DNA of 52,824 bases. It comes from Truepera sp. GTDB taxonomy: Bacteria; Deinococcota; Deinococci; Deinococcales; Trueperaceae. Below, piece by piece: positions 11,926 through 34,372 of the stretch (positions are counted from its first letter, which is position 1; every line of letters begins with the position of its first letter). The position numbers and the translations under genes were made by a program. The notes beneath the pieces were generated by a model that did no database searches, was not told where the DNA came from, and saw only the letters and a list, made by a program, of their open reading frames with translations. The stretch lies in contig JAGXSJ010000090.1 of assembly GCA_018333895.1 (NCBI GenBank), forward strand, positions 1 through 52,824, in the 5' to 3' direction.

Positions 11926-13868
11926 TTGAATCTATAAGACAACTGTCTCTCGACTTTCTCTATCACGAGTTGGGTGGAGAAGGCGATGCGGAATTATGGT
12001 ACCGAAGCGTTCGCGAGCAGGAAGCAGAACTCATATTCCCCTACCTAGTCGAAGCTGTCAGGGATTCAATGGCAAGCAACTACTACGTGCTCTACCCCGA
12101 CCCCAACGACGAGCAAGTTGCGGTGCTCGATCAACGAGAACTCAAGGATGAAGACAAATCCAAGCTACCATTCGTTCAGTCAACAGGGTCCCAGTCGCCT
12201 GCGCTTGGGCCTATCATCAAGCGTAGTTTTCAGAAGGGAAAGGGCAGCGGGCCTTCCGAAAAGATCCTCAACTCGACTCTAGTCGCTTTCGCTGAAATCG
12301 GGATGCGCGGCGAACCCTGGTCCGACTACTTTAGCTATGCACACGAGCTGCTTTCACGCCCCATTTTGCGTTATCAGGGCAAGCCGCTTGAGGGGGCACC
12401 CGCACTCCACCAAGCCGTCCGGGTAATTGACGAAACGAAGACCGCCTATCTCAGCATCCTAGACAGCGACGGCAAGCTCCCCGGCGAGCGCAACGATTAC
12501 CGCACTTACCTACAGCAAACGTTGGCGTCAGAGAAATACTCGACCAAAGCTATTCCGGCCGTCGAGGAACAGCAAGACGCCCTCACCGGTGAGATGACTA
12601 CCGTTTACCCCAATAGCCTTATCGGTGCGGGGCTGAACCTCACCAACGTCGATCGTCTGGGCGTTTTCACAGAGCTGGACGATACCAACGCTTGGAAAAA
12701 GTTTGCCCTCGGTGCGGCAAACGCCGACCTGCTTTACATCTTCAGCTTCCACATGCGAAGCGATTTCGTGGGGCGTGTAGCAGGTGAGCAGGCCTTGATC
12801 CTTCCCCATTTGACTTTTGAACAAACCAAGCGGCAGAGGTTTGTACGGGATTTCAAGTCGTACATTCAGCAGCTCAAAACTGATGCAAGAATGCAAGAAA
12901 AGCGCCTGCTCAGACACTTCAAAGATTACCCCGATGCCATAGCAAGCATCACCATCGTTTGGGCCAACTTCGGACAGAAACTCGAAAATGTCAACGGCAT
13001 CGTCACAGACGTGCTTCCCTCGCGCTTGAGCGCCATTGCAGATATCATTCAAATTGTAAGAGAGTCCACAAGCCCTGTCTTTCCAATACATCGAGTAACC
13101 GACGCTGAGCCCGATTTGGCGCTGAACAGCCTAGGTGCGCTTCTGAGACGGCCTGGGGGCAGGAAGAACAAAAAGGCTAACGAGGGTTCCCGACTCTTCG
13201 AACTGAAACGGGACATCGCAGCAAGGATTTACCACGGTAAGCCGTTGTCTACCGAACGTCTCTGGGATGAATTGCTCGTCGTTGCCAGAGAATACCTCGT
13301 CGATGCAGCGGAATCGGGGAACGCATACGGCCTGCTCAACGAAGGGGTCGGCAAAAAGGGAAACTACTTGACCCTGGCAGGTTGGGTCAAACATCTGGCT
13401 CTCTATCTCTACTTTTTCAGGCAATTGGAGGTCTATCCGAAAATGAATGACTGGCACTACACCCCCAAACGCGAAGAGTTAAAAGCGTTCTTCGAAGACG
13501 CGAAAACAACGGCAGGCCTGGACAATTCTGAAAAGGTCTATGCCTTCTTGCTCGGTGTGCTCTTCGGCAAGGTCATGGAAGTCCAGGGCGCGAGAGGCGT
13601 CAATGTCGGAGCCAACGCGCTCACCTGGCTGAAGCGTATGAACATCAGCGGTGCAGACTTGCCAGGGCTGTATATCAAAGTTAGAGAAAAACTCCTGGCC
13701 TACGACACGGAGAAAAGCCCAAGGGTCAGAGCAATTATCGAGGAACTAGGTTACCTCGGCACGGAAATCGGCAAGCCGAAACTCAACAAGATCGACGCCG
13801 GGTACTACCTGCTGCTAGGGCAATCCCTTACCAAAGCACTCATTCCGCCCAAGGAAAAGGAGGACTGA
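11922..13868 (+). CDS. cas8b: Type I-B large subunit Cas8b/Csh1-like
   Basis: 648 aa; position cas6-cas8-cas7-cas5-cas3; Csh1-like C-terminal (EKVYAFLLGVLFGKVMEVQ... YYLLLGQSL). Confidence 0.8.
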   Translation: MIESIRQLSLDFLYHELGGEGDAELWYRSVREQEAELIFPYLVEAVRDSMASNYYVLYPDPNDEQVAVLDQRELKDEDKSKLPFVQSTGSQSPALGPIIKRSFQKGKGSGPSEKILNSTLVAFAEIGMRGEPWSDYFSYAHELLSRPILRYQGKPLEGAPALHQAVRVIDETKTAYLSILDSDGKLPGERNDYRTYLQQTLASEKYSTKAIPAVEEQQDALTGEMTTVYPNSLIGAGLNLTNVDRLGVFTELDDTNAWKKFALGAANADLLYIFSFHMRSDFVGRVAGEQALILPHLTFEQTKRQRFVRDFKSYIQQLKTDARMQEKRLLRHFKDYPDAIASITIVWANFGQKLENVNGIVTDVLPSRLSAIADIIQIVRESTSPVFPIHRVTDAEPDLALNSLGALLRRPGGRKNKKANEGSRLFELKRDIAARIYHGKPLSTERLWDELLVVAREYLVDAAESGNAYGLLNEGVGKKGNYLTLAGWVKHLALYLYFFRQLEVYPKMNDWHYTPKREELKAFFEDAKTTAGLDNSEKVYAFLLGVLFGKVMEVQGARGVNVGANALTWLKRMNISGADLPGLYIKVREKLLAYDTEKSPRVRAIIEELGYLGTEIGKPKLNKIDAGYYLLLGQSLTKALIPPKEKED

Positions 13869-13871
13869 CCA

Positions 13872-14822
13872 ATGACCGACACCCTCAACGCCCGCCAAGA
13901 GTTCTTTTTCGCCTACGACATTCGCATGGGCAACCCAAACGGCGATCCGGATGAAAACCGTCCTCGCGTCTTGCCAGACAACACCTACTATGTGACGGAT
14001 GTGCGCCTCAAGCGCTTTATCCGTGATTTCTTCAAGAGCCAAGGCAAGGGCATCCTGGTCGATGACATCGAAGGACGAACGACCAACTTGACGGGTCGCG
14101 TCAGCGCATGGCTGGCAAGGCACGGCAAGAAGGAGGCGGACGGTCAGGAGCTGGTCGACATTATTCTGGATTCGTTCATCGACGCAAGGCTTTTCGGCAG
14201 CTCTCTAGCCTTCAAGAAGGAAGAAGTTAAAGGGCGCGAATGGAAACCCTTACCTAAAACGTTGACGGGTGCCGTGCAAATCGGTCATGGGGAAGTTCTT
14301 CACGACGCCCAGGAAGTTGAGATTCGGGGTACGAGCGTCTTTGCAAGTGACGAGGCGAAGGCTCAAGGAACGTTCACGGAATTCTTCGGACTTCGCTACG
14401 GGCTCATCGGCTTCAACGGCGTCGGCAACGAGCATAGTGCCAAAAAATCCCGCCTCAGCCAAGCCGATTACGACGACATGCTCCACGCTACCTGGCACGG
14501 CATTCGCTCGGCTGGGAACACACGCACCAAGACCGGACAGGTACCTCGTTTTCTCGTCAACATCAGCTACAAACCCGGACACGAATTTCAGTTTGGCAAC
14601 CTACTCGATTACGTCAAGCTCCAGGGCAAAGGCGACCCCCGAAACTGGAAAAGTCCCGAAGACTATCTGCTCGACATCAGCAAGCTCCGCGAGCGGCTCG
14701 AGCAATTCCGCCATCACATCGAGCAAATTAGCTACTGCCTGCATCCCGACGTGCAACTCTCTCCAGAGGATCGAAACTTCCTAACCGCGTGTCACAACCT
14801 GGACTACGATGGAGCCCGCTAG
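13872..14822 (+). CDS. cas7: Type I-B Cas7/Csh2
   Basis: FFFAYDIRMGNPNGDPDENRPRVLPD...TDVRLKRFIRDFF is the classic Csh2/Csd2 N-terminus. Confidence 0.92.
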   Translation: MTDTLNARQEFFFAYDIRMGNPNGDPDENRPRVLPDNTYYVTDVRLKRFIRDFFKSQGKGILVDDIEGRTTNLTGRVSAWLARHGKKEADGQELVDIILDSFIDARLFGSSLAFKKEEVKGREWKPLPKTLTGAVQIGHGEVLHDAQEVEIRGTSVFASDEAKAQGTFTEFFGLRYGLIGFNGVGNEHSAKKSRLSQADYDDMLHATWHGIRSAGNTRTKTGQVPRFLVNISYKPGHEFQFGNLLDYVKLQGKGDPRNWKSPEDYLLDISKLRERLEQFRHHIEQISYCLHPDVQLSPEDRNFLTACHNLDYDGAR

Positions 14823-15561
14823 CGCAAAACCTGTCGTCGTGTTTCGCTACTTTGGTCGCTTCGGCCATTTCCTACGCGCCGAGGCAAGTGCCAGTGCGCT
14901 CAGCTACCCTATCCCACCAAGGACGGTGCTTCTCGGCCTCATCGGCGCTGTACTAGGACTTGAAAAAGACACGCCCCAAGCGCTCCTCAAAGATGCGCTC
15001 ATTGCCGTTTCGGGCGCGCAGCCTTCCACACATTGGCACCGCGCGAAACTTCGCAAAGACCCTCCCGCACCACTGCCGCTACGCGTCAAAGCAGGGGCGA
15101 AGGGGAGCGACGCCCCGGAGAAAGCCACACTGATCAAGCAGGAGTGGCTTTTAAACCCAAACTACCAGGTGACTGCCCAGTTGCCCACACTCCATCATGA
15201 CGCACTCGTCAGACGCCTCAGAGAGGGCGCGTGGCACTACTCACCCTGTCTTGGGCTCTCGGAGATGAATGCCGAACTCGAGTTCATCGCCACGGGTACA
15301 GCAACTCCTTTGACCGGTGACCAGCAAGTAAACTGCCACAGCCTGGTCAGACAAGACCTTGTGACGGTAGAAGGCCAAAGATTTCTAGAGGACGGCCTCG
15401 AACTTCAGGTGCTTCGAATGCCACGCGATGTGACGCCAGATCGGGTTTTCAGTCACGCCAACTACCTTGTCGAAAGGCAGGGCCGGCCAATCCCAGTCAG
15501 GACCGCCCATGCGTGGCTCGTATCGCTACCGGGACGAGATTCGCATGTGATGTTTCTTTAG
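14809..15561 (+). CDS. cas5: Type I-B Cas5
   Basis: FRYFGRFGHFLRAEASASALSYPIPPRTVLLGLIGAVLGL; overlaps cas7. Confidence 0.9.
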   Translation: MEPASAKPVVVFRYFGRFGHFLRAEASASALSYPIPPRTVLLGLIGAVLGLEKDTPQALLKDALIAVSGAQPSTHWHRAKLRKDPPAPLPLRVKAGAKGSDAPEKATLIKQEWLLNPNYQVTAQLPTLHHDALVRRLREGAWHYSPCLGLSEMNAELEFIATGTATPLTGDQQVNCHSLVRQDLVTVEGQRFLEDGLELQVLRMPRDVTPDRVFSHANYLVERQGRPIPVRTAHAWLVSLPGRDSHVMFL

Positions 15562-15574
15562 GTGGTGCCGAGAC

Positions 15575-17869
15575 GTGCTTTATTCGCATCCCGACAAGCT
15601 GCTGGTCGATCACGTTCGCGAAGTTGGGGAGGCAGCGAGCATCATCCTGCAACGCCATTCCCTCCCAGACACCATTATGGAATGCGTCCGGGAGCTTGTG
15701 CGGCTCCACGATTTCGGCAAAGCAACTCGGTTTTTTCAGGAATATATCAGGTTCAAGCCGGAACCAAGGCGTTGGCCTGGCCGTCCGGAGCTGAAAGCCC
15801 ATACCGCGCTCGGCGCCTTAGCCTGCGCCATAGTCAAGCGGACCCACTCTCTGAGCGACGAGTGGCTGATCCAAGTCGGAAGCAGCGTGATGGGTCATCA
15901 CACACACTTGCCGACGCGAAACGACATCGACAACAGATTCATGAGCGATACACATTCGTCGGCGCTCATCCAGCAGCTCACCGACCTTCCCCTGACGGCA
16001 CTCATCGAGCTGACCGGATTTCCACTCCACCCCGAAGATTTTAGAGCTGACGAAGAGACTATCTTCGCTACTACTGACGCCTACCGAGACGCCTTCGATA
16101 CCTTAGACAAGCAGCCCATCGCGGAGGCTGCCCGCCTGCACCTTGCCACGCAGCTCGTTTTCAGTGTGCTGCTCGAGGCCGACAAGGCTTTCCTGGCTCT
16201 ATCGGAAGAAGCACGGTACGCTTACGCTTACAGGGCGGCAAAACGCATTGCACCTTCGGTCGTAGACGGTTACCTTGCAGAGGCCGAGGCCACTCCAATC
16301 AACGAGCTTCGTAGTCGTGCCCGTCACAACGCGCTACGGGAACTCTCCAACAACTCCAACGCCAATCTGTTTACCCTTACGCTTCCAACTGGCATGGGTA
16401 AGACGCTCACGGCGAAGTCGCTCGCTCTGCACCTTCGGGAAGAAAGCGCAAGACAAATAATCGTCGTATTGCCCTTCCTATCCATCATCGACCAAACGGC
16501 CACCGTCTACGCCGACGTGCTCGGACGACCTGGCGAAGACGTACTGATGCAAAGCCACAGCTTGAGTGCTCGTGATTACCTCGACCTCGAAGATGAGGAC
16601 GCGTCGTTCTTCCTCGACACCTGGCAAAGCGATATTGTCATTACCACGTTCGACCAGTTCTTGCTGGCACTTCTCGGTTCAAACACCAAGCATCAGATGC
16701 GCTTTCACCACTTGACAGACGCTATTGTCATTTTCGATGAAGTCCAGGCCCTGCCCAGCCACTTATGGGACATCATGCATCATGCCCTTAGAGCACTCAC
16801 CGATAAGTTCGGCACATCCGTCATCGCCATGTCCGCCACACAGCCGGGCTTCGTTCAGGGGGCGCTCGAGCTCGTAAGCGACGTGCAAGCCATCTTCAAA
16901 CGATTTGGCCGCTATCGGCTTGCGCTAAAGCACTACCAGGACGTTCCCATCGGGGAGTTTGTCGACTTGGTGCACGGAAGACACGACGACCTACGGCATA
17001 AGCGCGCCCTCATCACCTGCAACACTCGCCGAAGCGCACGCCGTCTCTACGATGAGCTTTGTGGCTGGTCAAGCGACGATTATCCTGTACATTTCCTAAG
17101 TGCCGACGTAACACCGAAAGATCGCCTTGCAGTCATCTCGAGGCTCAAAGAGAGCTACCCTAACCCCTGCCTGGTGATCTCTACCCAAGTGGTCGAGGCA
17201 GGCGTGGATATCGACATGGACCTCGTGATGCGAGATTTTGCGCCGCTCGACGCTATCATTCAGGTCGCGGGCCGCTGTAACCGGAACGACAGAAAGCCCC
17301 GCTGCGACGTGGAAGTCTACTCACTGGTCAACGACAAAGGAAAACGTTACAGCGAACTGATCTACCGAAGCGGCGGTGGTCCTGACCTAAGCCTGCAAGA
17401 AACACGTCGCGCCTTGGAGGGCTTGGAGTTCATTCCAGAGGAAGAGGTTTTAGTACTGGCTGAACGCTATTTTGCCAACATCCGCAACGCTAAGAACTTG
17501 GGCCAAGAGCACACGAGGAATTGGGCCTACTTTCGGGAACACTTGAACGTTTCGAGGCTATTACGCGGCGATCAGGATAGGCAGCATCAATTTATCGTTG
17601 CCGAAAGAGGTGATGTGGAACCAAGTCTTGAAACGACTGTCAGAGCTGTGCTCAGCATTGAGGATCGTTGGGAGAGGCGCCGTGACCTCAGGCGACTAGC
17701 GCCAAGGCTCGCCCAGGTCACTGTCAACGTTTGGGAGCAACGCGGCTTCAATCCCGAAAACATTGCCTACCAGGTGGGTCCGTTCTGGTTTGTTCGGGAG
17801 GGCTTTTATGATGACAAACGTGGACTGGACATTGCCGTAGGACACGCCGACGATGCGGCAATAATATGA
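15575..17869 (+). CDS. cas3: Cas3 HD nuclease-helicase (GTG start)
   Basis: HD segment LVRLHDFGKATRFFQEYI; Walker A TLPTGMGKTLTAKS; DEVQ box IFDEVQALP; MSATQPG; QVAGRCNRND. Confidence 0.95.
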   Translation: MLYSHPDKLLVDHVREVGEAASIILQRHSLPDTIMECVRELVRLHDFGKATRFFQEYIRFKPEPRRWPGRPELKAHTALGALACAIVKRTHSLSDEWLIQVGSSVMGHHTHLPTRNDIDNRFMSDTHSSALIQQLTDLPLTALIELTGFPLHPEDFRADEETIFATTDAYRDAFDTLDKQPIAEAARLHLATQLVFSVLLEADKAFLALSEEARYAYAYRAAKRIAPSVVDGYLAEAEATPINELRSRARHNALRELSNNSNANLFTLTLPTGMGKTLTAKSLALHLREESARQIIVVLPFLSIIDQTATVYADVLGRPGEDVLMQSHSLSARDYLDLEDEDASFFLDTWQSDIVITTFDQFLLALLGSNTKHQMRFHHLTDAIVIFDEVQALPSHLWDIMHHALRALTDKFGTSVIAMSATQPGFVQGALELVSDVQAIFKRFGRYRLALKHYQDVPIGEFVDLVHGRHDDLRHKRALITCNTRRSARRLYDELCGWSSDDYPVHFLSADVTPKDRLAVISRLKESYPNPCLVISTQVVEAGVDIDMDLVMRDFAPLDAIIQVAGRCNRNDRKPRCDVEVYSLVNDKGKRYSELIYRSGGGPDLSLQETRRALEGLEFIPEEEVLVLAERYFANIRNAKNLGQEHTRNWAYFREHLNVSRLLRGDQDRQHQFIVAERGDVEPSLETTVRAVLSIEDRWERRRDLRRLAPRLAQVTVNVWEQRGFNPENIAYQVGPFWFVREGFYDDKRGLDIAVGHADDAAII

Positions 17870-18396
17870 CCGAAAAATCCCCCATTACCGGCACCCTCGT
17901 CTGGTACTACGCCATCTGCCCGCGCGAGTGCTGGCTCATGGCGCACCAGATAGAACCTGAGCGCGACTTCGATCTCTTGGCCGAAGGGCGCCTCAATACC
18001 GAAGCTCACTACGAGCGCGAGAAGAAGGAGATCGAACTCCCCGGCGGCGTCAAGGTGGACAAGGTGCGGCGCGAAGGTGGGAAGCTGATCCTCAGCGAGA
18101 TCAAAAAGTCGAGCAAGTTCTTACCGGCTGCCATGCTGCAACTGGCGTTTTACCTGTGGACGCTCGAGCAAGAAGGGGTCGAAGCCATCGGCGAGGTGCT
18201 CGTCCCCGAAGAGCACAAACGCGAAGAGGTGAGTCTCGAAGGCGAGATGCGCAGTGAGCTGATACGGGCGCTGGAGGAGATTCCAAAACTGATCGACCAG
18301 CCCAAGCCGCCGCCGGCCAAGTGGATTCGCTACTGCAACCCCTGCGCCTACGCCGAGTTCTGCTGGAGCGGTGGAACAGTAGAACAGGATAGCTAA
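17866..18396 (+). CDS. cas4: Cas4 exonuclease
   Basis: ITGTLVWYYAICPRECWLM, SEIKKSSKF, C-terminal YCNPCAYAEFCW cysteines; ATGA overlap with cas3. Confidence 0.92.
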   Translation: MTEKSPITGTLVWYYAICPRECWLMAHQIEPERDFDLLAEGRLNTEAHYEREKKEIELPGGVKVDKVRREGGKLILSEIKKSSKFLPAAMLQLAFYLWTLEQEGVEAIGEVLVPEEHKREEVSLEGEMRSELIRALEEIPKLIDQPKPPPAKWIRYCNPCAYAEFCWSGGTVEQDS

Positions 18397-20728: not shown

Positions 20729-21985
20729 GTGATGGAACAGTACCAAGTCGACCATTTGCTGCTTCTTGTAGGCAGTAATCCCGTTCCCAATGCCGTCGCT
20801 GGCAAGTTGCTGGTTAAGCCTGGTGGTACGATTACGCTTATCTGCTCTGAAGACTCACTTATCGTTGCACAACGACTCAAAAGCTGGTTGGTAAGAGATG
20901 GCATCAAGGTGCGCGAACCAAATGATAGTAAAGTTGACCCCACCGACCCAACTTCCATCTTTACTATTGTCAGGAAAGCTCTCGACAAAACCCCTGATGT
21001 GAGTGTTGGACTCAACTACACGGGGGGTACCAAGGCGATGTCGGTGCATGCCTACCGGACGGTCGAGCAGTGGGGTAAGGAAAAAAACGTGCAACCAAAG
21101 TTTAGCTATCTAGATGCGCGTACTTTAACTATGGTTTTTGATCCTGAAGATCCCCAGAGTGGGTCTAACTCACAAAACGTATCAGTCGGTAATCAAGTTG
21201 AATTGAAACTGAGCGAAATTATGGAGCTACAAGGTTGGCAGATTAATTGGGAAAAGGAGTATGTGCAGACTCCCCTTTTCCCTAGAACTGCCGCGGCCTT
21301 AGCGCGCCTTTATGCTGGGGGAGACAAGAAAACGCGTCACTGGCTAGACTGGCTGAAGTATCTTGAGAGCAGCATCAAAAAGCCTAAGGGTGACGGTCAG
21401 CAAGCATTAAGTCAAGAAGAGATAAACGTGCTTCAGCTCCCCTGGGTAACTTCAACAGAGGGTTCTCAGTTAAGACAGGTAGTTGACACACTAAAATCCG
21501 AACTAGGTTTAGTAGATTATTTTGCTTTTAGTAAGTTGAGCAGAATCATGGGTGCTGGAGAGTTTGTCGAATGGCTGAAAGACAAATGGCTCGAACACCA
21601 CGTGTTGGATATAGTCAAAAACCAACCCGACTTACATGATTGTGTTCTCAGCTTAAGAACTGACGCAGTCGAGTTTGAAGTCGATGTGGTTGGATTGAAA
21701 GGGTATCAATTATTTGTCTTTTCGTGCACTACAAGCAGTTCGAAAAGTGCTTTGAAACAAAAGCTCTTTGAAGCCACAACCAGGGCACGGCAGCTTGGTG
21801 GTGATGAAGCCTGCGCGGCGCTAGTCTGCCTCTATGACGATGCAAGCAAGCTGCAAAAAGAAGTTCGCGACATCTTTGGTGAAAATAACGGGTCTGAGCG
21901 TATCAAAGTTTTGGGGCGTGAGCATCTTGCCAATCTTTCGGATGAGATAGCAGGCTGGATCAAGCACCAAAGTAATGCACAGTGA
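20729..21985 (+). CDS. CARF-domain nuclease, DUF1887/Card1(Can2)-like
   Basis: LLLVGSNPVPNAV N-terminus; VGLNYTGGTKAMSVHAYR CARF ligand motif; C-terminal FEVDVVGLKGYQLFVFSCTTSSSKSALKQKLFEATTRARQLGGD restriction-like region. Confidence 0.8.
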   Translation: MMEQYQVDHLLLLVGSNPVPNAVAGKLLVKPGGTITLICSEDSLIVAQRLKSWLVRDGIKVREPNDSKVDPTDPTSIFTIVRKALDKTPDVSVGLNYTGGTKAMSVHAYRTVEQWGKEKNVQPKFSYLDARTLTMVFDPEDPQSGSNSQNVSVGNQVELKLSEIMELQGWQINWEKEYVQTPLFPRTAAALARLYAGGDKKTRHWLDWLKYLESSIKKPKGDGQQALSQEEINVLQLPWVTSTEGSQLRQVVDTLKSELGLVDYFAFSKLSRIMGAGEFVEWLKDKWLEHHVLDIVKNQPDLHDCVLSLRTDAVEFEVDVVGLKGYQLFVFSCTTSSSKSALKQKLFEATTRARQLGGDEACAALVCLYDDASKLQKEVRDIFGENNGSERIKVLGREHLANLSDEIAGWIKHQSNAQ

Positions 21986-21991
21986 GGAGAC

Positions 21992-23650
21992 ATGCACCTA
22001 CTCATCGTTGACACCACCGGCATCCAGCCTTACATCTTCGGTAGCAACCGCCTGCGTGAAAATGTTGGGGCGTCGCACTTGGTCAAGCAAGCAACTGAGG
22101 CGTGGGCCCGAGAAGCCCTGGAGAGTGCCGTACCAGCACGACACAACTGGCAGACTGATGGCACGCTTGACACCACAAAGCGCATCGAAGCTGGCGCTAT
22201 CGACGCCGAAGTTGTCTATGCCAGCGGCGGCAATGTCGTCGTCATTTTCAAAGAGGGCAGTACGGCGCAAAGATTCACTGCCGAACTCTCCAAAATTACC
22301 CTTTGTAAAGCGCCAGGCCTGCAACTGGTCATGGCGCAGAAAGAATTTAATGGCTTAGGCATCAAGCAGTTACCTATCGATGACACTTTCAAATTGCTGG
22401 ATTGTCAAAAGCGCCAGTTGCAGTATGCCTCGACACCTCTGTTAGGCGTAGCAGTAACAACGCGGTGTCAGTCAACGGGGCTGCCTGCCGTGGGCTACGT
22501 TCCTGCTAAACAGGGCGACCCAGCATCCGCCTATCCAGCATCCGGCGAGGTTCTCGCCAAGTGGTATGCGGGCGATGATTCGCATAGCGCGCTGCACAAA
22601 CAGTTTGAAAGCATTCTTGGACAACGGTTTGCGTTTCCCAAGGAGATGGACGACTTGGGGCGCAGCGAGGGTGAGCACAGTTACGTCGCCGTCGTTCACG
22701 CCGACGGCAACGGCATGGGACAGCGCATTCAGGATATTCGTAAAACAATTGCTGATGACCGCGAATACATCACGAAAATTCGCCAATTTTCCCAAGAGCT
22801 TAACGACGCTACGCAGCGGGCGCTGACGTCAACACTTAACACACTTAAAACGTTAGCCAGCGGCGTTCAAGATGGCTGTATCAAACACCGAAAGATGCCA
22901 GATAAGCTTTGCATAAAGCTTAAAAAAGAAGATAACAGGTGGCTTCTTCCCTTCCGCCCCATCGTGATAGGTGGTGATGACGTCACCTTCATCTGCGACG
23001 GGAGGCTAGGGCTTTCGCTGGCGCTCCATTACCTTAAGCAATTTGAGCACGAGACGGCACATCTCTCGGATGGCAAAGGCAAAGCAACCGCATGTGCAGG
23101 TGTTGCTATCGTTAAATCGCACTATCCCTTTGCCAAAGCTTATGCACTCGCCGAAGAACTGACCAGTAACGCCAAGGCTTATTGGCGCACGCTGGCGAAC
23201 TACGATGGTGCTTGCATCGATTGGCACATGGCATTTTCTGGGCTGTATGGCAGTATTGAGACAATTCGAAAACGCGAATATAGCGGCGGCCTAACCATAA
23301 GGCCGCTCACACTAAAATCCAATCCCGGTTCGAACGATGGAGACAAAAGCTGGCCAGTTTTACAACGTGCGCTAGAGTCTTTCCAAAGCGAAGAATGGCT
23401 CGGCAAACGCAACAAAATGAAGGCGTTGCTTGAAGCGTTAAGAGAAGGGGCAAGTGGAGTCGAGCGATTCCAAAAAATGTATCTCGCGAAAATCGGTCAG
23501 AAGCTGCCGGATGTTGGGCTTGGCGGTGATGTCCAGACCAAGGGTTTCTATGGTCAGCGAACCCCCTACTTTGATGCCATCGAACTTGCCGACTGGTACC
23601 TACCGCTCAATGATGACAGCACGGGAGAGCAAAGTCATGACAACGCTTGA
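21992..23650 (+). CDS. cas10: Cas10, short form without an evident HD domain (type III-D)
   Basis: PIVIGGDDVTFICDG palm GGDD; N-terminus begins directly at MHLLIVDTTGIQPYIFGSNRLRENVGASHLV; C-terminal helical region. Confidence 0.88.
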   Translation: MHLLIVDTTGIQPYIFGSNRLRENVGASHLVKQATEAWAREALESAVPARHNWQTDGTLDTTKRIEAGAIDAEVVYASGGNVVVIFKEGSTAQRFTAELSKITLCKAPGLQLVMAQKEFNGLGIKQLPIDDTFKLLDCQKRQLQYASTPLLGVAVTTRCQSTGLPAVGYVPAKQGDPASAYPASGEVLAKWYAGDDSHSALHKQFESILGQRFAFPKEMDDLGRSEGEHSYVAVVHADGNGMGQRIQDIRKTIADDREYITKIRQFSQELNDATQRALTSTLNTLKTLASGVQDGCIKHRKMPDKLCIKLKKEDNRWLLPFRPIVIGGDDVTFICDGRLGLSLALHYLKQFEHETAHLSDGKGKATACAGVAIVKSHYPFAKAYALAEELTSNAKAYWRTLANYDGACIDWHMAFSGLYGSIETIRKREYSGGLTIRPLTLKSNPGSNDGDKSWPVLQRALESFQSEEWLGKRNKMKALLEALREGASGVERFQKMYLAKIGQKLPDVGLGGDVQTKGFYGQRTPYFDAIELADWYLPLNDDSTGEQSHDNA

Positions 23651-24314
23651 ACTGCACTTTAAGCTACTAAGCGATGCGACCTTTGGGCGTGGCGACGGCG
23701 TGGCTGGGCTGGTGGATGCCGAAGTCGAGCACGACGCTTACGGCCTGCCGTTCTTACGCGGCCGCACGCTAAAAGGGCTTCTTGTCGAGGAGTGCAGCAA
23801 TATCCTCTATAGCTTGCGTGGGCATGCACGCTACAATGAGCTTGAAAGTGCATCGCGGCGGCTTTTTGGCAGCCCTGGCAGCAGCCTAGATAGCGCTGGC
23901 ATCCTGCGCGTTGGTGGGGCGCAGTTGCCACGGGACTTGCGCGAGGCCGTGCGGGCCGCTATCGACGACAAAAATAACACCCTTACAGCGACCGATGTTC
24001 TCGAGTCTCTGACTGCTATCCGCCGGCAAACTGCCGTTGATGCTTCAAACGGCACGCCAGACGAGGGTAGCTTGCGTGCGATGCGCGTTATCCTTCGGGA
24101 AGCGCACTTTACCGCACAGCTCGACTTTGTAGATGAGCCGAGTGACATTGACATGGAGCTGGCACTTCTGGCGGCTTGCGTCAAAGGCTTTCGGCGTGCT
24201 GGTACGGGGCGCAACCGCGGGCGCGGCAGACTGGTAGCCTGGCTCAATGACGAAACGTACACCGATCAGAACTTTGGTGTCTTTAAGGCTCTGGTGCTGG
24301 AGGAAGCGGCATGA
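23637..24314 (+). CDS. Type III-D single Cas7/Csm3-like RAMP
   Basis: ATGA overlap start at 23637: MTTLELHFKLLSDATFGRGDGVAGLVDAEVEHDAYGLPFLRGRTLKGLLVEEC; G-rich GTGRNRGRGRL. Confidence 0.85.
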   Translation: MTTLELHFKLLSDATFGRGDGVAGLVDAEVEHDAYGLPFLRGRTLKGLLVEECSNILYSLRGHARYNELESASRRLFGSPGSSLDSAGILRVGGAQLPRDLREAVRAAIDDKNNTLTATDVLESLTAIRRQTAVDASNGTPDEGSLRAMRVILREAHFTAQLDFVDEPSDIDMELALLAACVKGFRRAGTGRNRGRGRLVAWLNDETYTDQNFGVFKALVLEEAA

Positions 24315-25894
24315 AGGCGATTCGCTACCGCGTTACGCTACTCGAGCCCACGCTGATCGCCAGCTTCGGTGGTGCGCCCGACAGCGTTGAAAGTTTCGAC
24401 TACCTGCCCGGCAGCGTACTGCGCGGCATCTTTATCGGCAATTACATGCGCCAGTACACACTAAGAGAGCTAGATGCCACAGACGCGACCGTGCGCAGGC
24501 TCTTTTTTGACGGCAGCACACGCTTTCTCAATGGTTACCCACTCGACCGTACCCATCCGGGCAAGCGCATGCTCCCAACACCCCACTCATGGCGTAACAA
24601 AAAAGGCGACGAAACCGCCGTCTTTGACCTCGCTGTTGATGATGAAATATCTAAAGATGAAGAACTCAAACCAGTTAACAAACCGTTTTGCCTTGTGAGT
24701 GAAAAGGTGCAACTCCACCGACCCGAAAAACTACTGACCATCCATACTCGTCGTACACGCCGATTTGGGCGGGCGGTGTCGGGAGCAAAACTCAAGCTGG
24801 AAGCTGATGATATCGAAGGGGCGATCTACCGATACGAAGCGTTGCAGGCTGGTCAACACTTTGAAGCCATTATCCTGTGCGATCAGGATGAGGACGCTGA
24901 CGCTCTAAGCCAATTTGTAAGCGGTGCGGTACTCCTTGGGAAATCGCGCAGCGGGGGGTACGGTCGTGCATGCATTGAAATATGTGAGATCGAAGAAGAT
25001 GACTGGTTTGAAGCAAGTTATGACGTTCATCAGTCACCGCTTATCGTCACGTTGCTGAGCGACACGCTAATCCGCGACGATGCTGGGCAGTACACCACTG
25101 ATGTCAAGGTTGTTGAACGTCTACTGGCTCAAAAGCTGGACATAGAACTATCTCTTCACGATGCGTTTGTCAAAACACAGATCATCGGCGGCTTTAACCG
25201 AAAGTGGGGGCTGCCCTTGCCGCAAACTCAGGCACTGCAAGCAGGCAGTGTGTTGGTGTTCGACACCGATGAGACGCCCGACGAAGACAGGTTGACGCAG
25301 TTACTTTGGCAAGGCATCGGTGAGCGGCGGGCTGAGGGCTTCGGGCGGGTTGCTGTGAACTGGCAAGCGTTAGAAGAGCTTAAAGTTACAGATAATGATG
25401 GCAAAAATGGCTACGAAAAGAATCGGAATATCGCCAGTGATGAGGGCAAGGAAATAGCGGGGCGAATGCTACATCGAATGCTCGGGGAGCAGGTAGAAGC
25501 GGCCATTATGCAATCAGCCGATCGCTTCGGTCATCAAATTCGCAACCCCAGCAAAAGTCAGTTCAACGGCCTTCGCATGGTGATTCAGCGGGCACTCAGG
25601 CAACCGCCAGATGAAGGGCGACGTGCTATTGCTAACTACCTTGATTCCTTAGAAGGGCGTAAATCAACGCGAGAGCAGTTCAGCCGCGACCGTGTAGCAG
25701 GAAAAGACATTTTGGAGTGGATCCGAGAACGCGCAACTGATGAGCACATTTGGCAAGAGTTAGACATTGGCAAGCTGCCGCAACTCGGTGATCTACAAGC
25801 AAAGCTCGATGCTGCGCAAGCCTACAACTATAACCTGCGCCTGGTTGACGCCGTGCTGGCTCGAGCCGCCAAGTCCAAAGGGGGTAACGAATGA
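24311..25894 (+). CDS. csx10: Csx10-like RAMP (Cas5 group) with helical C-terminal extension
   Basis: IRYRVTLLEPTLIASFGGAPDSVESFDYLPGSVLRGIFIGNYM; LLGKSRSGGYGRACI; ~130-aa predicted helical tail after GKEIAGRMLHRML. Confidence 0.78.
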   Translation: MKAIRYRVTLLEPTLIASFGGAPDSVESFDYLPGSVLRGIFIGNYMRQYTLRELDATDATVRRLFFDGSTRFLNGYPLDRTHPGKRMLPTPHSWRNKKGDETAVFDLAVDDEISKDEELKPVNKPFCLVSEKVQLHRPEKLLTIHTRRTRRFGRAVSGAKLKLEADDIEGAIYRYEALQAGQHFEAIILCDQDEDADALSQFVSGAVLLGKSRSGGYGRACIEICEIEEDDWFEASYDVHQSPLIVTLLSDTLIRDDAGQYTTDVKVVERLLAQKLDIELSLHDAFVKTQIIGGFNRKWGLPLPQTQALQAGSVLVFDTDETPDEDRLTQLLWQGIGERRAEGFGRVAVNWQALEELKVTDNDGKNGYEKNRNIASDEGKEIAGRMLHRMLGEQVEAAIMQSADRFGHQIRNPSKSQFNGLRMVIQRALRQPPDEGRRAIANYLDSLEGRKSTREQFSRDRVAGKDILEWIRERATDEHIWQELDIGKLPQLGDLQAKLDAAQAYNYNLRLVDAVLARAAKSKGGNE

Positions 25895-27357
25895 ACCTCT
25901 GGGAGGCCAAACATTCACGCAAAATCACCGAGCGCATCGTCATCGAGGCAAATCTAGTGCTGAAAACACCTGCACACTTCGGCAACGGTGATGGGGATGA
26001 GATTATCGACATGCCCTTGCTGGTTGACCCGCTGGATGGTGAGTCACCCTTCCTCTCCGGCGCTTCTATTGCGGGTGCTTTAAGAAACTATCTGCGGGCC
26101 AACTTGAGAGGGTATAACGTACAACTTCCGGAACTTTCGGATGATACCTCTGTCCGAGAGGAACGGGAAAGCCTGGTGACCAGGCTCTTCGGTGGTTTCA
26201 AGGGGGATGACGAGGGTGAGCAAAGCCCGCTTATCATCGACGATGCCCTAGGCTCCAATGGCGGCATTGAACTGCGTGACGGCGTGAAGATCGACGGCAA
26301 GAGCCGCACGGCTGAAGAAGGCAAGCTTTTCAATCTGGAAACCTGGCAAGCGGGCACGACCTTCCCCTTGCGATTTGAACTCGTTATCCGCGAGCAAGAT
26401 AACGCTACAGCTCTCAAACAAGCCTTGGCGACAGCCTTGCACGGCCTTGAAACCGGCGACATCACCTTGGGTGCGCGCAAACGGCGGGGCTACGGGCAAG
26501 TTGATATTCAAGGCAAATGGCATGTTACATGCTACGACCTCACCACAGCACAAGGGTTGGTTGGCTGGCTCGAGCAGAGCGGTGCTGCTACAGAGAACGC
26601 CAGCATCGCCACCGCGCTCGGCGTTTCGATGCTCGACCAGGATGCTCGCTGCTACTTTGACTTGTGCGCGACATTCCGTCTCGACGGCGCATTGCTGATT
26701 CGCGGTAACAGCATCCTCGGTCATGAAGGCCCTGACGCTATGTACTTGCACACAAAACGACTCGACAATAACTCCAATGACTTAACCCCTGTGATTTCAG
26801 GCACCAGCTTAGCTGGGGCGCTCCGTGCCAGAGCATGCAAGATCGCTCAGACGCTCGGCATAGTCCCTGGGATCGTTGTTGACATGTTCGGCGATATGGA
26901 CAACAAGCAAAAACAGGCCAGCCGCGTCACGGTCAAAGAAACCGTAATTCGGCGACCGGCCAATACTGAACTGGTGCAAAACCGCATCAGCATCGACAGA
27001 TTTACCGGCGGTGTCAAAGAAGGCGCACTCTTTAACGAACAACCCGTATTCGGCAGTGAGCAAACTGAGGTAACGCTCGAGCTACGCCTCATCAACCCGA
27101 AGCCGTCTGAGATGGGACTACTCATGCTGTGTCTAAAAGACCTGTGGACGAGCGACCTGCCTCTCGGCGGCACTAGCAGCATCGGACGCGGCAGAGTAAA
27201 GGGCAAAGAAGCGATACTCACCTGGCGCAACGGCAGCGCCGAATCAAAGATGTGGCGCATTGTCCAAGAGGGCAGCAAGCTGCGCGTCGAAGGCGCTAAG
27301 GACGAACTTGAACAATGGGTTGGCGATCTGGTGCAGGAGGTGAGCCATGCCGCGTGA
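25891..27357 (+). CDS. Double Cas7 RAMP (Cas7-2x-like)
   Basis: Two RAMP modules: FLSGASIAGALRNYLRANLRG...GARKRRGYGQV and VISGTSLAGALRARACKIA...GGTSSIGRGRV. Confidence 0.82.
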   Translation: MNLWEAKHSRKITERIVIEANLVLKTPAHFGNGDGDEIIDMPLLVDPLDGESPFLSGASIAGALRNYLRANLRGYNVQLPELSDDTSVREERESLVTRLFGGFKGDDEGEQSPLIIDDALGSNGGIELRDGVKIDGKSRTAEEGKLFNLETWQAGTTFPLRFELVIREQDNATALKQALATALHGLETGDITLGARKRRGYGQVDIQGKWHVTCYDLTTAQGLVGWLEQSGAATENASIATALGVSMLDQDARCYFDLCATFRLDGALLIRGNSILGHEGPDAMYLHTKRLDNNSNDLTPVISGTSLAGALRARACKIAQTLGIVPGIVVDMFGDMDNKQKQASRVTVKETVIRRPANTELVQNRISIDRFTGGVKEGALFNEQPVFGSEQTEVTLELRLINPKPSEMGLLMLCLKDLWTSDLPLGGTSSIGRGRVKGKEAILTWRNGSAESKMWRIVQEGSKLRVEGAKDELEQWVGDLVQEVSHAA

Positions 27358-27952
27358 GGTACGCACGATCAAGCCGTGCAACGCCAGGCTAACGTCAATC
27401 GCCCCCCCTGCGGATGACGACATAAAGCGTTGGCTCGAAGAACAAACCGCCTCACACAACCTCGAGTTTAAGTGGCTCCTGGCTCACGCTGATGACGGGG
27501 TAATCTGGGGGCGCATTGACGACCAAACCCTGCAGCTTTCGAGCGAAGTTAGCGACATATCCCCACCACTACGCAGCGAAACGCTACAAGCCGCCCGCAT
27601 TTTTAGAGCGAGTGCCGAACTGCTCCTTTGGCGAGATGGCGATAACGCGTGGCACGCGCGGCTCATCGAAGACGACGTTCCCACCGAAGATACTACCTAC
27701 CAAGAAGTTATCGATGAGCACCATATCCTGTGGGGAACCGATGCTAAGGCACTTGCACACGACTTTACTTTGATGCGTGACGGTGTTGAGGGTTTAGCCC
27801 ACGCTGTGCCACGCTCTGTCAAGGGAACATTTGATGAACGTAGTCGACCACTGCGGTTGCACGTGCGCCATTATCTGCGCAAAGACGACATGGGTTTTGT
27901 TCGCATTCACACCAGCCGCCTTGTTGATCTGTCTGTGGAGAAACAGCCATGA
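27347..27952 (+). CDS. csx19: Csx19-like (TIGR03984-type) CRISPR-associated protein
   Basis: Length and position between the double Cas7 and the TIGR03986-like RAMP; HILWGTDAK...DGVEGLAHAVP...LHVRHYLRKDDMGFVRIHTSRL. Confidence 0.68.
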   Translation: MPREVRTIKPCNARLTSIAPPADDDIKRWLEEQTASHNLEFKWLLAHADDGVIWGRIDDQTLQLSSEVSDISPPLRSETLQAARIFRASAELLLWRDGDNAWHARLIEDDVPTEDTTYQEVIDEHHILWGTDAKALAHDFTLMRDGVEGLAHAVPRSVKGTFDERSRPLRLHVRHYLRKDDMGFVRIHTSRLVDLSVEKQP

Positions 27953-30225
27953 CCTTACCCAAGCACAAAAATCCAAGATCAGACCGCACCGCCAGCACAC
28001 CTTATAACTTCGTGCCGCTGCCCGAAAAAGTCATTCCAGCTGTACCAAGCGCTGACAAGCTCCCCGACCACGACCGCTACGACGTAAAGCGCCATACAGG
28101 CTACTTCGACGTGACGCTTACTACTCGCTCGCCGCTGTATGTGCGCTGCCCGCTTACGCTGGACGCATTTTTGCGCCAGGAGCGTGGTGAGGACGAAAAG
28201 CTCTTCAAAGAGAAGAAGATTTCTTTCCGGGAGTTGATCAAAAATACCCCAGATTTTTTCTACACTCACCGTCTCGGTGAACCTGTGATTCCCGGTAGCA
28301 GCCTGCGGGGGATGCTGAGGAGCTTGCTGGAGGTTGTGAGTTATGGGAAGCTCGAGCGTGTTACTGAAAAAAAGCTTTTCTTTCGCACCGTAGACGACAC
28401 AGCCGTTGGGCTCTACTACCGTAACCGGATGGTCGAAAAGGTCGAATCGGGGTTTCTCGTCCGTTCAAGTGACGGCTACGCGATCCGGGTTTGCCAAATG
28501 GCTCGTGTGAATCGGAATCAACTTAAAGGTCAGGTGTACCAAGGTAGCGGCCCCAATAAAACTCCAGTTTGGCGAAACAATTCTAATCAAAACTACCAGT
28601 GGCAACCAATTTGGGTGAAGCTCTCAGGGAATGGCCGCTTTGTCGAGGATTTGGCTTTGTCTTCACGTCCTAATTACCAAGAGGGACGACTGGTTATCAC
28701 TGGAGACGCACCTAGGAAGACAAAGGAGTTTGTTTTCTTGCTACCTGGTGAGAATGCCGAGATACTCAATGTACCTGAGGCAATCATCGAGCGTTTTCAC
28801 GATGACGATCAGATAACGCAGTGGCAAACTAAGGCTTTCCCGAGGAAAGAGCCTAAGGAAAACTATAGACAACGTGACGGCTTCCTAGGTACGAATCCTC
28901 AAGGTCCCGGAGAGCCGATCTTTTTCTTGCGTGAACAGGATGAGCTAACCTTTATCGGACGTGCGCAAATGTTCCGCTTGCCTTATCAATCAACACCACA
29001 TGATCTTTTGCCGGAGGAGTTGCGTAAGGCATCTGTATTGGACTACGCTGACTCACTGTTTGGCTATGTCGGGCGTGACGACAAACAGAAGAGGCAAGGC
29101 GACAAGAGTCAAGCCTATGCAAGCCGTGTCAATATCACCGACGCCACGCTCATTGGTAAACCCGAGAATCTTTGGCTTTCAGAACAGCCGTTTACCCCCA
29201 AAATCCTTGCCTCTCCCAAACCTACGGCTTTTCAGCACTACCTCACACAGCACAATCCTGATGACCGCAAAAAACTGAATCACTATGGCAGTCCGCCAGC
29301 TGATACAACCCTACGCGGTCATAAGTTTTATTGGCATCAGAACAATCCCGCTGTTACTGAAATTGAAGAGCGTGATCCAAAGTGGCTCGATGAGAATGGC
29401 AGGGTTAAGTCAGATAGCACCCAACATACCTTATTCCGCCCCGTTCGCGACGGAGTGCAGTTTAAGTTCCACGTGTACTTTGAAAATCTCTCTGACCGCG
29501 AACTAGGCGCGCTCTGCTGGGTGCTGCATCCCGTTGGGTCTGAAGGTAAGGACTACTGTCACAGTCTCGGTATGGGCAAACCCTTGGGTATGGGCGCCGT
29601 GAAGCTGGAGGCGACGCTGTATCTGACCAACCGCGCCGAACGCTATAAGTCACTCTTTAACGGTGATGAATGGAAGTTGGGTTTAGAGGAGCCTCAAAGC
29701 TTGAGTGACAGGAACGTGCTGATTGAGCGCACTAAGACTTTTGAAAAGCACATCCTTTCCGAGCTTGCACCCGAGCCCACCTGTGAGCACTTGTACGGCT
29801 TAAAACGCATCGTCATGCTGCTAAAGATGCTCGAGTGGCCTGGCTACCCTGCTCAGGCGAGCGCCGACTTGTATCTCCAGACGGAGAATCGTCCCAACAC
29901 GCGCTATATGCAACTGGACGAATTCAAAAAGCGCCCTGTATTATCCGACCCATCAGCTTTCGGTGAGCTAACTGGCAAGAGCGAACCAATAGAAAGCGTG
30001 TTTTTTGAGAAAAGCACTTCTGGTAACTGGCGCAACGACTTAGAGGGGTGTCAAGACGATTTAGAGAACTGGATAGTGCAGACCTATCAAAGCGATGTTG
30101 TCAATGCCGAAGAGAAAGTCAAGCGCATTTTGTCACTCACTCAGACGCATATTTCGGGGTTAGAGTTACTGATACCTCAACTCATTCGTAAGATACAGAA
30201 ACGTTTAGCCAATTCAGCGCCATGA
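27949..30225 (+). CDS. Large TIGR03986-type RAMP protein (Cas7 with insertion)
   Basis: PYNFVPLPEKVIPA...GYFDVTLTTRSPLYVR...GEPVIPGSSLRGMLRSLLEVVSYGKLERV; C-terminal HSLGMGKPLGMGAVKL. Confidence 0.82.
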   Translation: MTLPKHKNPRSDRTASTPYNFVPLPEKVIPAVPSADKLPDHDRYDVKRHTGYFDVTLTTRSPLYVRCPLTLDAFLRQERGEDEKLFKEKKISFRELIKNTPDFFYTHRLGEPVIPGSSLRGMLRSLLEVVSYGKLERVTEKKLFFRTVDDTAVGLYYRNRMVEKVESGFLVRSSDGYAIRVCQMARVNRNQLKGQVYQGSGPNKTPVWRNNSNQNYQWQPIWVKLSGNGRFVEDLALSSRPNYQEGRLVITGDAPRKTKEFVFLLPGENAEILNVPEAIIERFHDDDQITQWQTKAFPRKEPKENYRQRDGFLGTNPQGPGEPIFFLREQDELTFIGRAQMFRLPYQSTPHDLLPEELRKASVLDYADSLFGYVGRDDKQKRQGDKSQAYASRVNITDATLIGKPENLWLSEQPFTPKILASPKPTAFQHYLTQHNPDDRKKLNHYGSPPADTTLRGHKFYWHQNNPAVTEIEERDPKWLDENGRVKSDSTQHTLFRPVRDGVQFKFHVYFENLSDRELGALCWVLHPVGSEGKDYCHSLGMGKPLGMGAVKLEATLYLTNRAERYKSLFNGDEWKLGLEEPQSLSDRNVLIERTKTFEKHILSELAPEPTCEHLYGLKRIVMLLKMLEWPGYPAQASADLYLQTENRPNTRYMQLDEFKKRPVLSDPSAFGELTGKSEPIESVFFEKSTSGNWRNDLEGCQDDLENWIVQTYQSDVVNAEEKVKRILSLTQTHISGLELLIPQLIRKIQKRLANSAP

Positions 30226-30253: not shown

Positions 30254-31357
30254 ATGAAAAACCACCTCATCCTCTCAACCTGCGGCACCAGCATCCTCAC
30301 CAACACTCCTGATAGTGAGGTGCGAACCTTGGTAATTCGCAACGCCAACGCCAAACGTGGGGCGCTAGCGCCGGACGATTTGGCCAGGCTCGAGGCGCAC
30401 ATCGCGGCACGCCGTACCGAGTTGCTCGCCTGCACTAATCCGGCCGACGCCAAGTGGCTCAGCGCCGAGTTAAACGGCATTCTCAGCTACTACGACAATC
30501 AGCTAAGGGGGCGCGAGCGCGATCGGCACGTGCTGATTGTCAGCGACACTTTCCTGGGTGAGGCGGTCGGCGAGATCATTCGCGCCTGGTTGGGGGCGCA
30601 GGGCCTCAGCGTGCAGGTGCAGAAGTTCGCTGGACTTGTGACCGACGACTACTCGAGCTTTCGCAACGCAATGATTCAGCTTATCCGCTGGTGCGAAGAG
30701 ACACTGCCCGGCTACCGCAGCGCCGACTACCGGGTGGTGTTTAACCTCACCGGCGGCTTTAAGAGCGCCCAAGGGTTCATGCAAACCGTCGGGATGTTCT
30801 ACGCCGACGAAAGCGTCTACATCTTCGAGACTGGTAGCCTCTTGCGCATTCCCAGGCTGCCGATACGGCTCGATATCGACGGCCTCATGGCGCAGTACGG
30901 CGACAAACTGCGCCTCCTTAGCCACGGACAAACGCTGAGCACGCAAGAAGTGACCGGCATCCCGGAAACGCTGCTCTTTGAGGTTGATGGCGAAGTGACG
31001 CTTTCGGAGTGGGGAGAGCTGGTGTGGCAGCAAAGTAAACGTGCGCTTTACGGGCGCGACCTGCTTGCGCCCTTACCAGGGTTGCGCTTCGGCGACGGTT
31101 TCAGAAAGAGCGTCGAGCGGCAGCGATTGACCAGCGATCAGCTTGCCGTTCTCAACGAGCGGCTCGATCAGCTCAGCTTCGTCAGCCAAGGTAAAGGCAG
31201 CAATCTCAGGGGTTTGGATTTCAAAGCGCTCAAGGGCGATCCCAAACCACCTTCAACTCACGAGTGCGATATCTGGTCGGGTGACGAGCGGCGGCTGTTT
31301 GGGCACTACGCCGATGACGTCTTTGTCATTGATAATATCGCGAGAGGGCTACATTGA
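30254..31357 (+). CDS. TIGR02619/APE2256-type CARF protein with RelE-like C-terminus (Cami1-like)
   Basis: LILSTCGTSILTN, VVFNLTGGFKSAQGFMQTVGMFYADESVYIFETG (CARF); C-terminal LRGLDFKALKGDPKPPSTHECDIWSGDERRLFGHYADDVFVIDNIARGLH resembles RelE strands. Confidence 0.75.
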   Translation: MKNHLILSTCGTSILTNTPDSEVRTLVIRNANAKRGALAPDDLARLEAHIAARRTELLACTNPADAKWLSAELNGILSYYDNQLRGRERDRHVLIVSDTFLGEAVGEIIRAWLGAQGLSVQVQKFAGLVTDDYSSFRNAMIQLIRWCEETLPGYRSADYRVVFNLTGGFKSAQGFMQTVGMFYADESVYIFETGSLLRIPRLPIRLDIDGLMAQYGDKLRLLSHGQTLSTQEVTGIPETLLFEVDGEVTLSEWGELVWQQSKRALYGRDLLAPLPGLRFGDGFRKSVERQRLTSDQLAVLNERLDQLSFVSQGKGSNLRGLDFKALKGDPKPPSTHECDIWSGDERRLFGHYADDVFVIDNIARGLH

Positions 31358-31597: not shown

Positions 31598-31807
31598 ATG
31601 GAAACGCTAAAGTTGACCACCACCATCGATCCTGACGGCCACTTGCGCCTGGATGTGCCCACCAACTTGCCTGCGGGCGAGGTCGAATTGGTCATTGTGC
31701 TGAGTAAGCCCAGGCAGGTGCGTTACGACTTTTCCGACTTAGTGGGCAGGCTGGCTTGGAAAGGTGACGCCTTGGCCACGCAACGAGACCTGCGCGATGA
31801 ATGGTGA
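31598..31807 (+). CDS. Small antitoxin-like protein (VapB-type)
   Basis: METLKLTTTIDPDGHLRLDVPTNLPAGEVELVIVLSK; overlaps the PIN-toxin gene by ~11 bp. Confidence 0.7.
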   Translation: METLKLTTTIDPDGHLRLDVPTNLPAGEVELVIVLSKPRQVRYDFSDLVGRLAWKGDALATQRDLRDEW

Positions 31808-32277: not shown

Positions 32278-33094
<817 letters not shown>

Positions 33095-33112: not shown

Positions 33113-34108
33113 TTGAAAGCGCCCGTTTACATCTTCTCAAACGGCGAACTCTCGCGCCAGCAGAACACTTTGCGCTTCGACGGGCCCAAAGGGATGCGCA
33201 TGGTGCCGGTCGAGACCACCAGCGAAATCCACGTCTTCGGCGAGGTAGCTCTGAACACCCGGGCACTCAACTTTCTGACCCAACATGGCATCCCCTTGCA
33301 CCTCTACAACTACTACGGCTACTACGCAGGAAGCTACATGCCGCGCGAGCAGTACGTCTCAGGCTATCTGACGCTCCAGCAAGCCACCCATTACAACGAG
33401 TTCCCCAAGCGCCTGGCGCTAGCTCAGGCGTTCGTGCTGGGAGCGCTGCGTAACCTCGAAAAAGTCTTGATGTATTACCAGCGGCGCGGCCCTGGCAACT
33501 ACGGCGAGGTGCTGGACAATATTCGCGACGCGCAGTACCTCGTCACCGATCAACAGGACATCGAAACGCTCATGGCACTCGAAGGCAATGCCCGCACCGT
33601 CTACTATCAAGTCTGGGACGGCATCCTGAACAACGAAGACTTCAAGTTCGAGAGCCGCACCAAACGTCCACCGCTAAATCGTGTCAACGCGCTGATCAGC
33701 TTCGGCAACAGCCTCATGTACGTGAGCTGCCTCTCCGAAATCTACCGCACCCACCTCGACCCGCGCATCGGCTTTTTGCACACCACCAACTACCGGCGCT
33801 ACAGCCTGAATCTCGATCTCGCCGAGATTTTCAAACCGATCGTCGTCGACCGTATCATCTTCACCCTCATCAACAAGGGGATGCTGAACGCGAGCAGCTT
33901 CCAGAAAGACTCTGGCGGCATCTTTCTCAAGGAAAACGCCCGTCAGACCTTCCTCAAGGCTTACGACGAACGCCTCAAGGACACGCTGATGATGCCGCGT
34001 CTCAAGCGACACGTCTCGTATCGCCGCCTCATCCGCATGGAGTGCTACAAGCTGGAAAAGCATTTGATTGGCGACGAGCCCTATGTCCCCTACGTGGCGA
34101 GGTGGTAG
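33113..34108 (+). CDS. cas1: Cas1 integrase
   Basis: YIFSNGELSRQQNTLRFDGPKG...NFLTQHGIPLHLYNYYGYYAGSYMPRE...HPRIGFLH-type motif (DPRIGFLHTTNYRRYSLNLDLAEIFKPI). Confidence 0.96.
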   Translation: MKAPVYIFSNGELSRQQNTLRFDGPKGMRMVPVETTSEIHVFGEVALNTRALNFLTQHGIPLHLYNYYGYYAGSYMPREQYVSGYLTLQQATHYNEFPKRLALAQAFVLGALRNLEKVLMYYQRRGPGNYGEVLDNIRDAQYLVTDQQDIETLMALEGNARTVYYQVWDGILNNEDFKFESRTKRPPLNRVNALISFGNSLMYVSCLSEIYRTHLDPRIGFLHTTNYRRYSLNLDLAEIFKPIVVDRIIFTLINKGMLNASSFQKDSGGIFLKENARQTFLKAYDERLKDTLMMPRLKRHVSYRRLIRMECYKLEKHLIGDEPYVPYVARW

Positions 34109-34372
34109 GTGTACGTCATCATGGTCTACGACGTCGGCGTCGAGCGCGTGGTCAAGGTTTTGAAGACCGGGCGCAAATACCTGACCCACGTACAGAACTC
34201 ACTACTCGAAGGCGAGCTCTCCCCTGCCCAGTACAAGCGCCTCAAGTTCGAGGTCAGCAGGATCATCGACGACACGCACGACACGGTGATGTTTTACACC
34301 CTGCGCTCGGAGGAGTTTCTTCACAAGGAACGCCTGGGCATAGCCACTAAAGAGCCAGGGGAGTTTTTGTAG
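34109..34372 (+). CDS. cas2: Cas2 (GTG start)
   Basis: YVIMVYDVGVERVVKVLKTGRKYLTHVQNSLLEGELSPAQ; directly after cas1. Confidence 0.95.
   Translation: MYVIMVYDVGVERVVKVLKTGRKYLTHVQNSLLEGELSPAQYKRLKFEVSRIIDDTHDTVMFYTLRSEEFLHKERLGIATKEPGEFL

Follow-up and report, generated by a model that had tools for sequence, protein, structure and literature searches.

Among the closest known relatives of the operon analyzed here is the III-Dv effector of Synechocystis sp. PCC 6803 (PDB 8s9t; PMC11026444), in which Cas7, Cas5, and Cas11 form one chain. Its subunits are present in single copy, its crRNA is 37 nt long, and it cuts RNA in 6-nt steps and delivers cyclic oligoadenylate (cOA); the aspartates D26, D33, and D246 have been shown to cut RNA (PMC11026444). 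Other described arrangements include the fully split III-D1 operons, the III-D2 systems with a Cas7x3 protein, and the III-E systems, in which a single Cas7-11 (gRAMP) occurs without Cas10 and Cas5; III-E derives from III-D2 (PMC8730458, PMC12669027).

The window, i.e., the whole stretch of 52,824 nucleotides analyzed, carries six ORFs with overlapping frames at 21992-30225, all on the + strand and all matching III-D profiles far above chance (PADLOC, NCBIfam, Pfam):

21992..23650, + strand: cas10, 552 aa (PADLOC Cas10d 1.6e-135; Pfam Cas10 palm2 6.5e-12)
23634..24314, + strand: single cas7, 225-226 aa (PADLOC Cas7_IIId 1.5e-71)
24311..25894, + strand: csx10, 527 aa, Cas5 (residues 1-360) plus helical Cas11 (377-526) (PADLOC Cas5_IIId 7e-143)
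25891..27357, + strand: double Cas7 (Cas7-2x), 488 aa (PADLOC Cas7_IIId 1.7e-123)
27347..27952, + strand: csx19 (PADLOC Csx19 2e-37; NCBIfam TIGR03984 7.1e-36, over the cut-off)
27949..30225, + strand: inserted Cas7, with a large insertion (PADLOC Cas7_IIId 3.3e-182; NCBIfam TIGR03986 1.4e-126)

The six genes form a complete type III-D CRISPR defense operon of the RNA-targeting kind, with the gene order Cas10, Cas7, Csx10, double Cas7, Csx19, inserted Cas7 that a sequence-only reading had proposed. It possesses the Csx10 variant of Cas5, Csx19, and a Cas10 whose best PADLOC match is Cas10d, i.e., a Cas10 of the III-D clade. The operon is a further member of the known subtype III-D and not a new kind of system. 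The cas7 frame begins at GTG 23634 or ATG 23637 and closes with a TGA ending at 24314, its stop sharing an ATGA overlap (24311-24314) with the ATG of cas5 at 24311; Cas7 and Cas5 are therefore separate genes, in agreement with the same reading. The 488-aa protein is indeed a double Cas7, as it displays two RAMP stretches (Pfam, 7e-35) and aligns over its full length with Synechocystis Cas7-2x (8s9t_D, 1.4e-19). The inserted Cas7, likewise anticipated, is borne out by its TIGR03986 match and by its fold, whose closest Foldseek matches are the III-Dv Cas7-insertion (8s9t_E, 2.8e-28) and Cas7-11 (8.0e-26).

Csx10 had been described as an unfused Cas5-like protein. While it is separate from Cas7, its Cas5 part is already fused to Cas11. 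In a phmmer comparison, Csx10 matched residues 397-740 of the Synechocystis Cas7-Cas5-Cas11 chain 8s9t_A (6.8e-15), covering Cas5 and part of Cas11. Its AlphaFold model (pLDDT 91.3), computed like the other models on alignments without plasmid sequences, has two halves with an RRM-like fold, reaching residue 360, and a helical region spanning 377-526, and the best solved match of this model in Foldseek is the Cas7-Cas5-Cas11 chain 8s9v_A (5.3e-31). Sequence match, model, and fold search together establish Csx10 as a Cas5-Cas11 fusion. Its TIGR02674 match (5.6e-48, 164 bits) lies slightly below the 177-bit cut-off. An hhalign comparison of the fused Cas11 domain with stand-alone III-D Cas11 found nothing (0.7%), the similarity being barely detectable. 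A profile-score rank test on the Cas11 question gave p = 1.7e-11, part of which may reflect real genes compared with random ORFs, and PADLOC and structure were consequently used as the Cas11 evidence. Since Csx10 is already Cas5-Cas11, the window operon is one junction, that between Cas7 and Cas5, short of III-Dv. With a naturally occurring complex that lacks just this fusion relative to the solved III-Dv complex, the effect of Cas7-Cas5 tethering becomes directly testable.

The catalytic residues of the III-Dv effector are retained. In the alignments, the single Cas7 keeps the catalytic aspartate at the D26 column and the double Cas7 keeps those at the D33 and D246 columns, while Cas10 preserves the GGDD palm motif. 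No HD domain was found in the window Cas10, which contains only a C-terminal HD dipeptide. The operon is surrounded by further CRISPR-associated genes:

11161..18396, + strand: type I-B module cas6-cas8b-cas7-cas5-cas3-cas4, upstream of the III-D operon (PADLOC matches)
20729..21985, + strand: CARF-PD-(D/E)xK effector (Card1/Can2-like) with a GTG start (PADLOC CARF_PDDEXK 4.6e-99; Pfam Card1_endonuc 4.1e-6)
30254..31357, + strand: CARF-RelE effector (PADLOC CARF_RelE 1.6e-120)
33113..34108, + strand: cas1 (Cas1b 7.7e-135)
34109..34372, + strand: cas2-sized ORF, assigned by position, size, and reading of its translation only
34548..~48020, + strand: CRISPR array, 204 copies of the 30-nt repeat GTTTTTAGCCTTCCTACGAGGGATTGAAAC (0 copies expected by chance), its end approximate with the last repeat copies not listed

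The product of 20729..21985 is a candidate cOA-activated nuclease and that of 30254..31357 a candidate cOA-activated RNase, the latter being 40% identical over 378 columns (blastp) to the gene downstream of the Synechocystis III-Dv operon (L007). The array is very long and its 204 repeats are nearly all identical; at least one spacer stretch occurs twice, in identical form at 35731 and 36990. Two pairs of small genes, at 19578-20488 and 32281-33094, flank the III-D operon and resemble nucleotidyltransferase/HEPN toxin-antitoxin pairs by eye. Beside them lie a PIN-like ORF (31764-32174) and a MazF-like ORF (19077-19415), also assigned by eye; among these toxin-antitoxin-like ORFs, the one at 19578 has the only family match (PADLOC PDC-S09). 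The III-D operon was found in none of the 111 other genomes searched in the host phylum, and the recorded contamination of the genome bin is 8%. This pattern could stem from horizontal transfer or from misbinning of the contig, making the host assignment unsure and leaving the operon itself unaffected.

It is very probable that the window encodes an ordinary, partly fused type III-D effector combining crRNA-guided RNA cutting at three sites with cOA signaling, and that it belongs to an unfused clade which is sister, not ancestral, to III-Dv. By analogy with the III-Dv homologue, from which the crRNA length is also predicted, the complex may operate as follows. Cas6 of the type I-B module, which probably serves III-D crRNA maturation as well, would process the transcript of the adjacent array; the effector would assemble on the processed crRNA, probably with one copy per subunit, and pair with the target RNA. 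The single Cas7, together with both halves of Cas7-2x, would then cut this target at three sites 6 nt apart, with the inserted Cas7 predicted to cap the 3' end of the crRNA. Target binding may switch the HD-less Cas10 to cOA synthesis, and this product would activate the flanking CARF-nuclease and CARF-RelE effectors.

The window operon and Synechocystis III-Dv have the same gene order, and both possess the Cas5-Cas11 fusion, Cas7-2x, Csx19, Cas7-insertion, the three catalytic aspartates, GGDD in a short Cas10, and a CARF-RelE gene downstream. Unlike III-Dv, where the three domains share one chain, the window keeps Cas7 as a separate gene beside its fused Cas5-Cas11, carries a Card1-like gene 5' of cas10, and lies within a type I-B locus together with its array. 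The proteins are about 22-27% identical and fall in separate, well supported clades, and the window complex is known through its catalytic residues, whereas copy number, crRNA length, cut spacing, and cOA output are features described in III-Dv. Fully split III-D1 operons (e.g., L111 and L122) follow the corresponding order Cas10, Cas7, Csx10, Cas11, Cas7, Cas7, Csx19, Cas7. In contrast to the window, Cas11 and each of the two middle Cas7 proteins have a gene of their own, their Cas10 is longer, and their last Cas7 is small; a stand-alone Cas11/Csm2 (PADLOC, 5e-63) directly follows csx10, and Csx19 (2e-63) lies between Cas7 genes, just before the last one. The III-D2 (Cas7x3) and III-E systems share with the window the order of Cas7 and Cas11 domains and the insertion in the last Cas7. 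Unlike them, and apart from them in the inserted-Cas7 tree, the window has no three- or four-Cas7 fusion and keeps Cas10, Cas5, and Csx19: its Cas7 domains are spread over three genes, at most two are fused, and csx19 separates Cas7-2x from Cas7-insertion.

To describe the distribution of this arrangement, loci were called "unfused" when Cas7 is separate from Cas5-Cas11 and "fused" when Cas7 and Cas5 form one protein. When genome contigs were scanned with the double-Cas7 alignment, 463 relatives emerged; the 80 best of these were retained and annotated, along with further loci, using profiles built in this analysis. The complete order Cas10, Cas7, Cas5-Cas11, Cas7-2x, Csx19, Cas7-insertion occurs in 90 unfused loci spanning Cyanobacteria, Chloroflexota, Acidobacteriota, Planctomycetota, Bacillota, and others, 70 of which also carry a Card1-like gene 5' of cas10. 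The same order is present in the annotated plasmids pNsp_a of Nostoc ATCC 53789, pANACY.01 of Anabaena PCC 7122, and p3 of Planktothrix agardhii. Unfused III-D operons from cyanobacterial plasmids, Entotheonella, and many phyla coincide with the window in gene set, order, and clade, differing only in sequence divergence and accessory genes; in Planktothrix, the Card1-like gene is truncated. The architecture is common, widespread, and already modeled in PADLOC. Its novelty was rejected on these grounds, i.e., the PADLOC models of its proteins and the 90 loci sharing its gene order. Samples of Cyanobacteria and Chloroflexota also contain fused Cas7-Cas5 proteins of about 630-861 aa, as well as short Csx10 proteins of about 400-450 aa, the latter lying in fully split III-D1 operons. 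A different fusion within the same operon occurs in Phormidium pseudopriestleyi (L047, ORF at 5205), where Cas7-2x and Csx19 form one 716-aa frame, and in Baaleninema simplex PCC 7105, an unfused III-D operon and one with a fused Cas7-Cas5-Cas11 coexist in a single genome (L078, L099).

Concatenated trees of 135 loci and, in a careful version, 44 loci were rooted on split III-D1. In both, the window falls within a large unfused clade, in the vicinity of Entotheonella and other bacteria; its nearest relatives are 53-55% identical over the concatenated proteins. The cyanobacterial III-Dv loci are monophyletic and apart from this clade, with strong support for both groups. The window lineage is sister to cyanobacterial III-Dv, not its direct precursor, and direct ancestry was rejected on the basis of this separate position. 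The idea of a III-Dv precursor, put forward in the sequence-only reading, survives in a formal sense: the fully split III-D1 operons share the gene order but contain still fewer fusions, which makes the window operon formally intermediate. It marks a distinct stage lying between split III-D1 and III-Dv, helping to order the steps of III-D evolution.

A single clade of fused loci was rejected (AU p = 3e-63) and was united in no bootstrap tree, and the fused label requires at least three changes on the tree. As the fused proteins do not form one clade, the Cas7-Cas5 fusion was made, or undone, repeatedly. The unfused arrangement is the likelier ancestral state, though not certainly so. It is rather likely that the window operon keeps an ancestral separation of Cas7 and Cas5 and that III-Dv arose by one more fusion, a proposition about character state rather than lineage. 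Throughout the 16 split III-D1 outgroup loci, Cas7 and Csx10 are separate and in the same order wherever the two could be located, and 9 of the 16 have the 4-nt ATGA overlap in common with 65 unfused loci. Mk models give the fused state at the ancestor of III-Dv and the window a probability of 0.20 when rates are equal and 0.00 when they are free (unfused 0.80 to 1.00). The junction common to split and unfused loci, together with the differing linker lengths of the fused proteins, favors repeated fusion, although ATGA overlaps are common in operons generally. Against an ancestral separation, the fused loci L101-L106 and L128/L147 branch below the III-Dv/window split, on long branches. Because these two long-branched fused lineages diverge early, unweighted parsimony (our own count on the 44-locus topology) requires three steps, one gain and two losses, as opposed to four independent gains.

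This count slightly favors the view that a fused Cas7-Cas5-Cas11 ancestor was split secondarily, the outcome that the sequence-only reading had itself set against its proposal, with the fused locus L107 appearing as sister to the unfused clade. Nevertheless, the branch of L107 is very long (2.2) and its placement varies between trees, while the Mk models and the conserved junction shared with the outgroup point away from a split, which we regard as unlikely. We lean slightly toward a scheme in which the Cas7-Cas5 fusion, the defining feature of III-Dv, arose independently in three or more lineages sharing one collinear III-D operon, the window lineage having stopped at Cas5-Cas11 and Cas7-Cas7. 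If so, the row of subunits would have an inherent tendency to fuse along the gene order, and III-Dv would represent one of several parallel end points, with gRAMP emerging from the fused side.

A resemblance to a gRAMP precursor had also been suggested. The domain order is the same, two window proteins show weak matches to III-E gRAMP profiles (P0004, 5e-13; P0006, 8e-23), and the fold of the inserted Cas7 (P0006) matches Cas7-11. The inserted-Cas7 tree, however, places DiCas7-11 with the fused lineages (99/99), and a test that left out L110 and L145 rejects placing it with the window clade (p = 1.5e-7). When inserted Cas7 proteins are scored against full-length Cas7-11 chains, that of the window ranks lowest (33-38 bits), compared with 65-74 for III-Dv and 79-101 for the fused Chloroflexota locus L101, and published work traces III-E to III-D2. 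Direct precursor status for gRAMP is thus highly improbable, and was rejected on the tree, the scores, and the III-D2 literature. The tree rows of DiCas7-11 and 9wxh are partial, copied from HMMER alignments, and their branches are long; the position of the Cas7-11 inserted domain with the fused lineages, apart from the window clade, is therefore a strong hint and not proof. It agrees with the published derivation of III-E from III-D2 (PMC8730458, PMC12669027). Together with the dispersal of the fusion outside a single clade, it sharpens the proposed path from III-D1 through III-Dv to III-E.

Among the loci sampled, the inserted Cas7 of L101 and L103-L106 is the closest relative of Cas7-11; these loci, from the Chloroflexota sample, form a divergent fused Cas7-Cas5 lineage in which Csx19 was not detected. 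In two of the unfused loci sampled from Bacteroidota and Chloroflexota, L110 and L145, the inserted Cas7 groups with III-Dv (100/100) and the other four proteins, concatenated, group with the window clade, an apparent exchange of one subunit between lineages.
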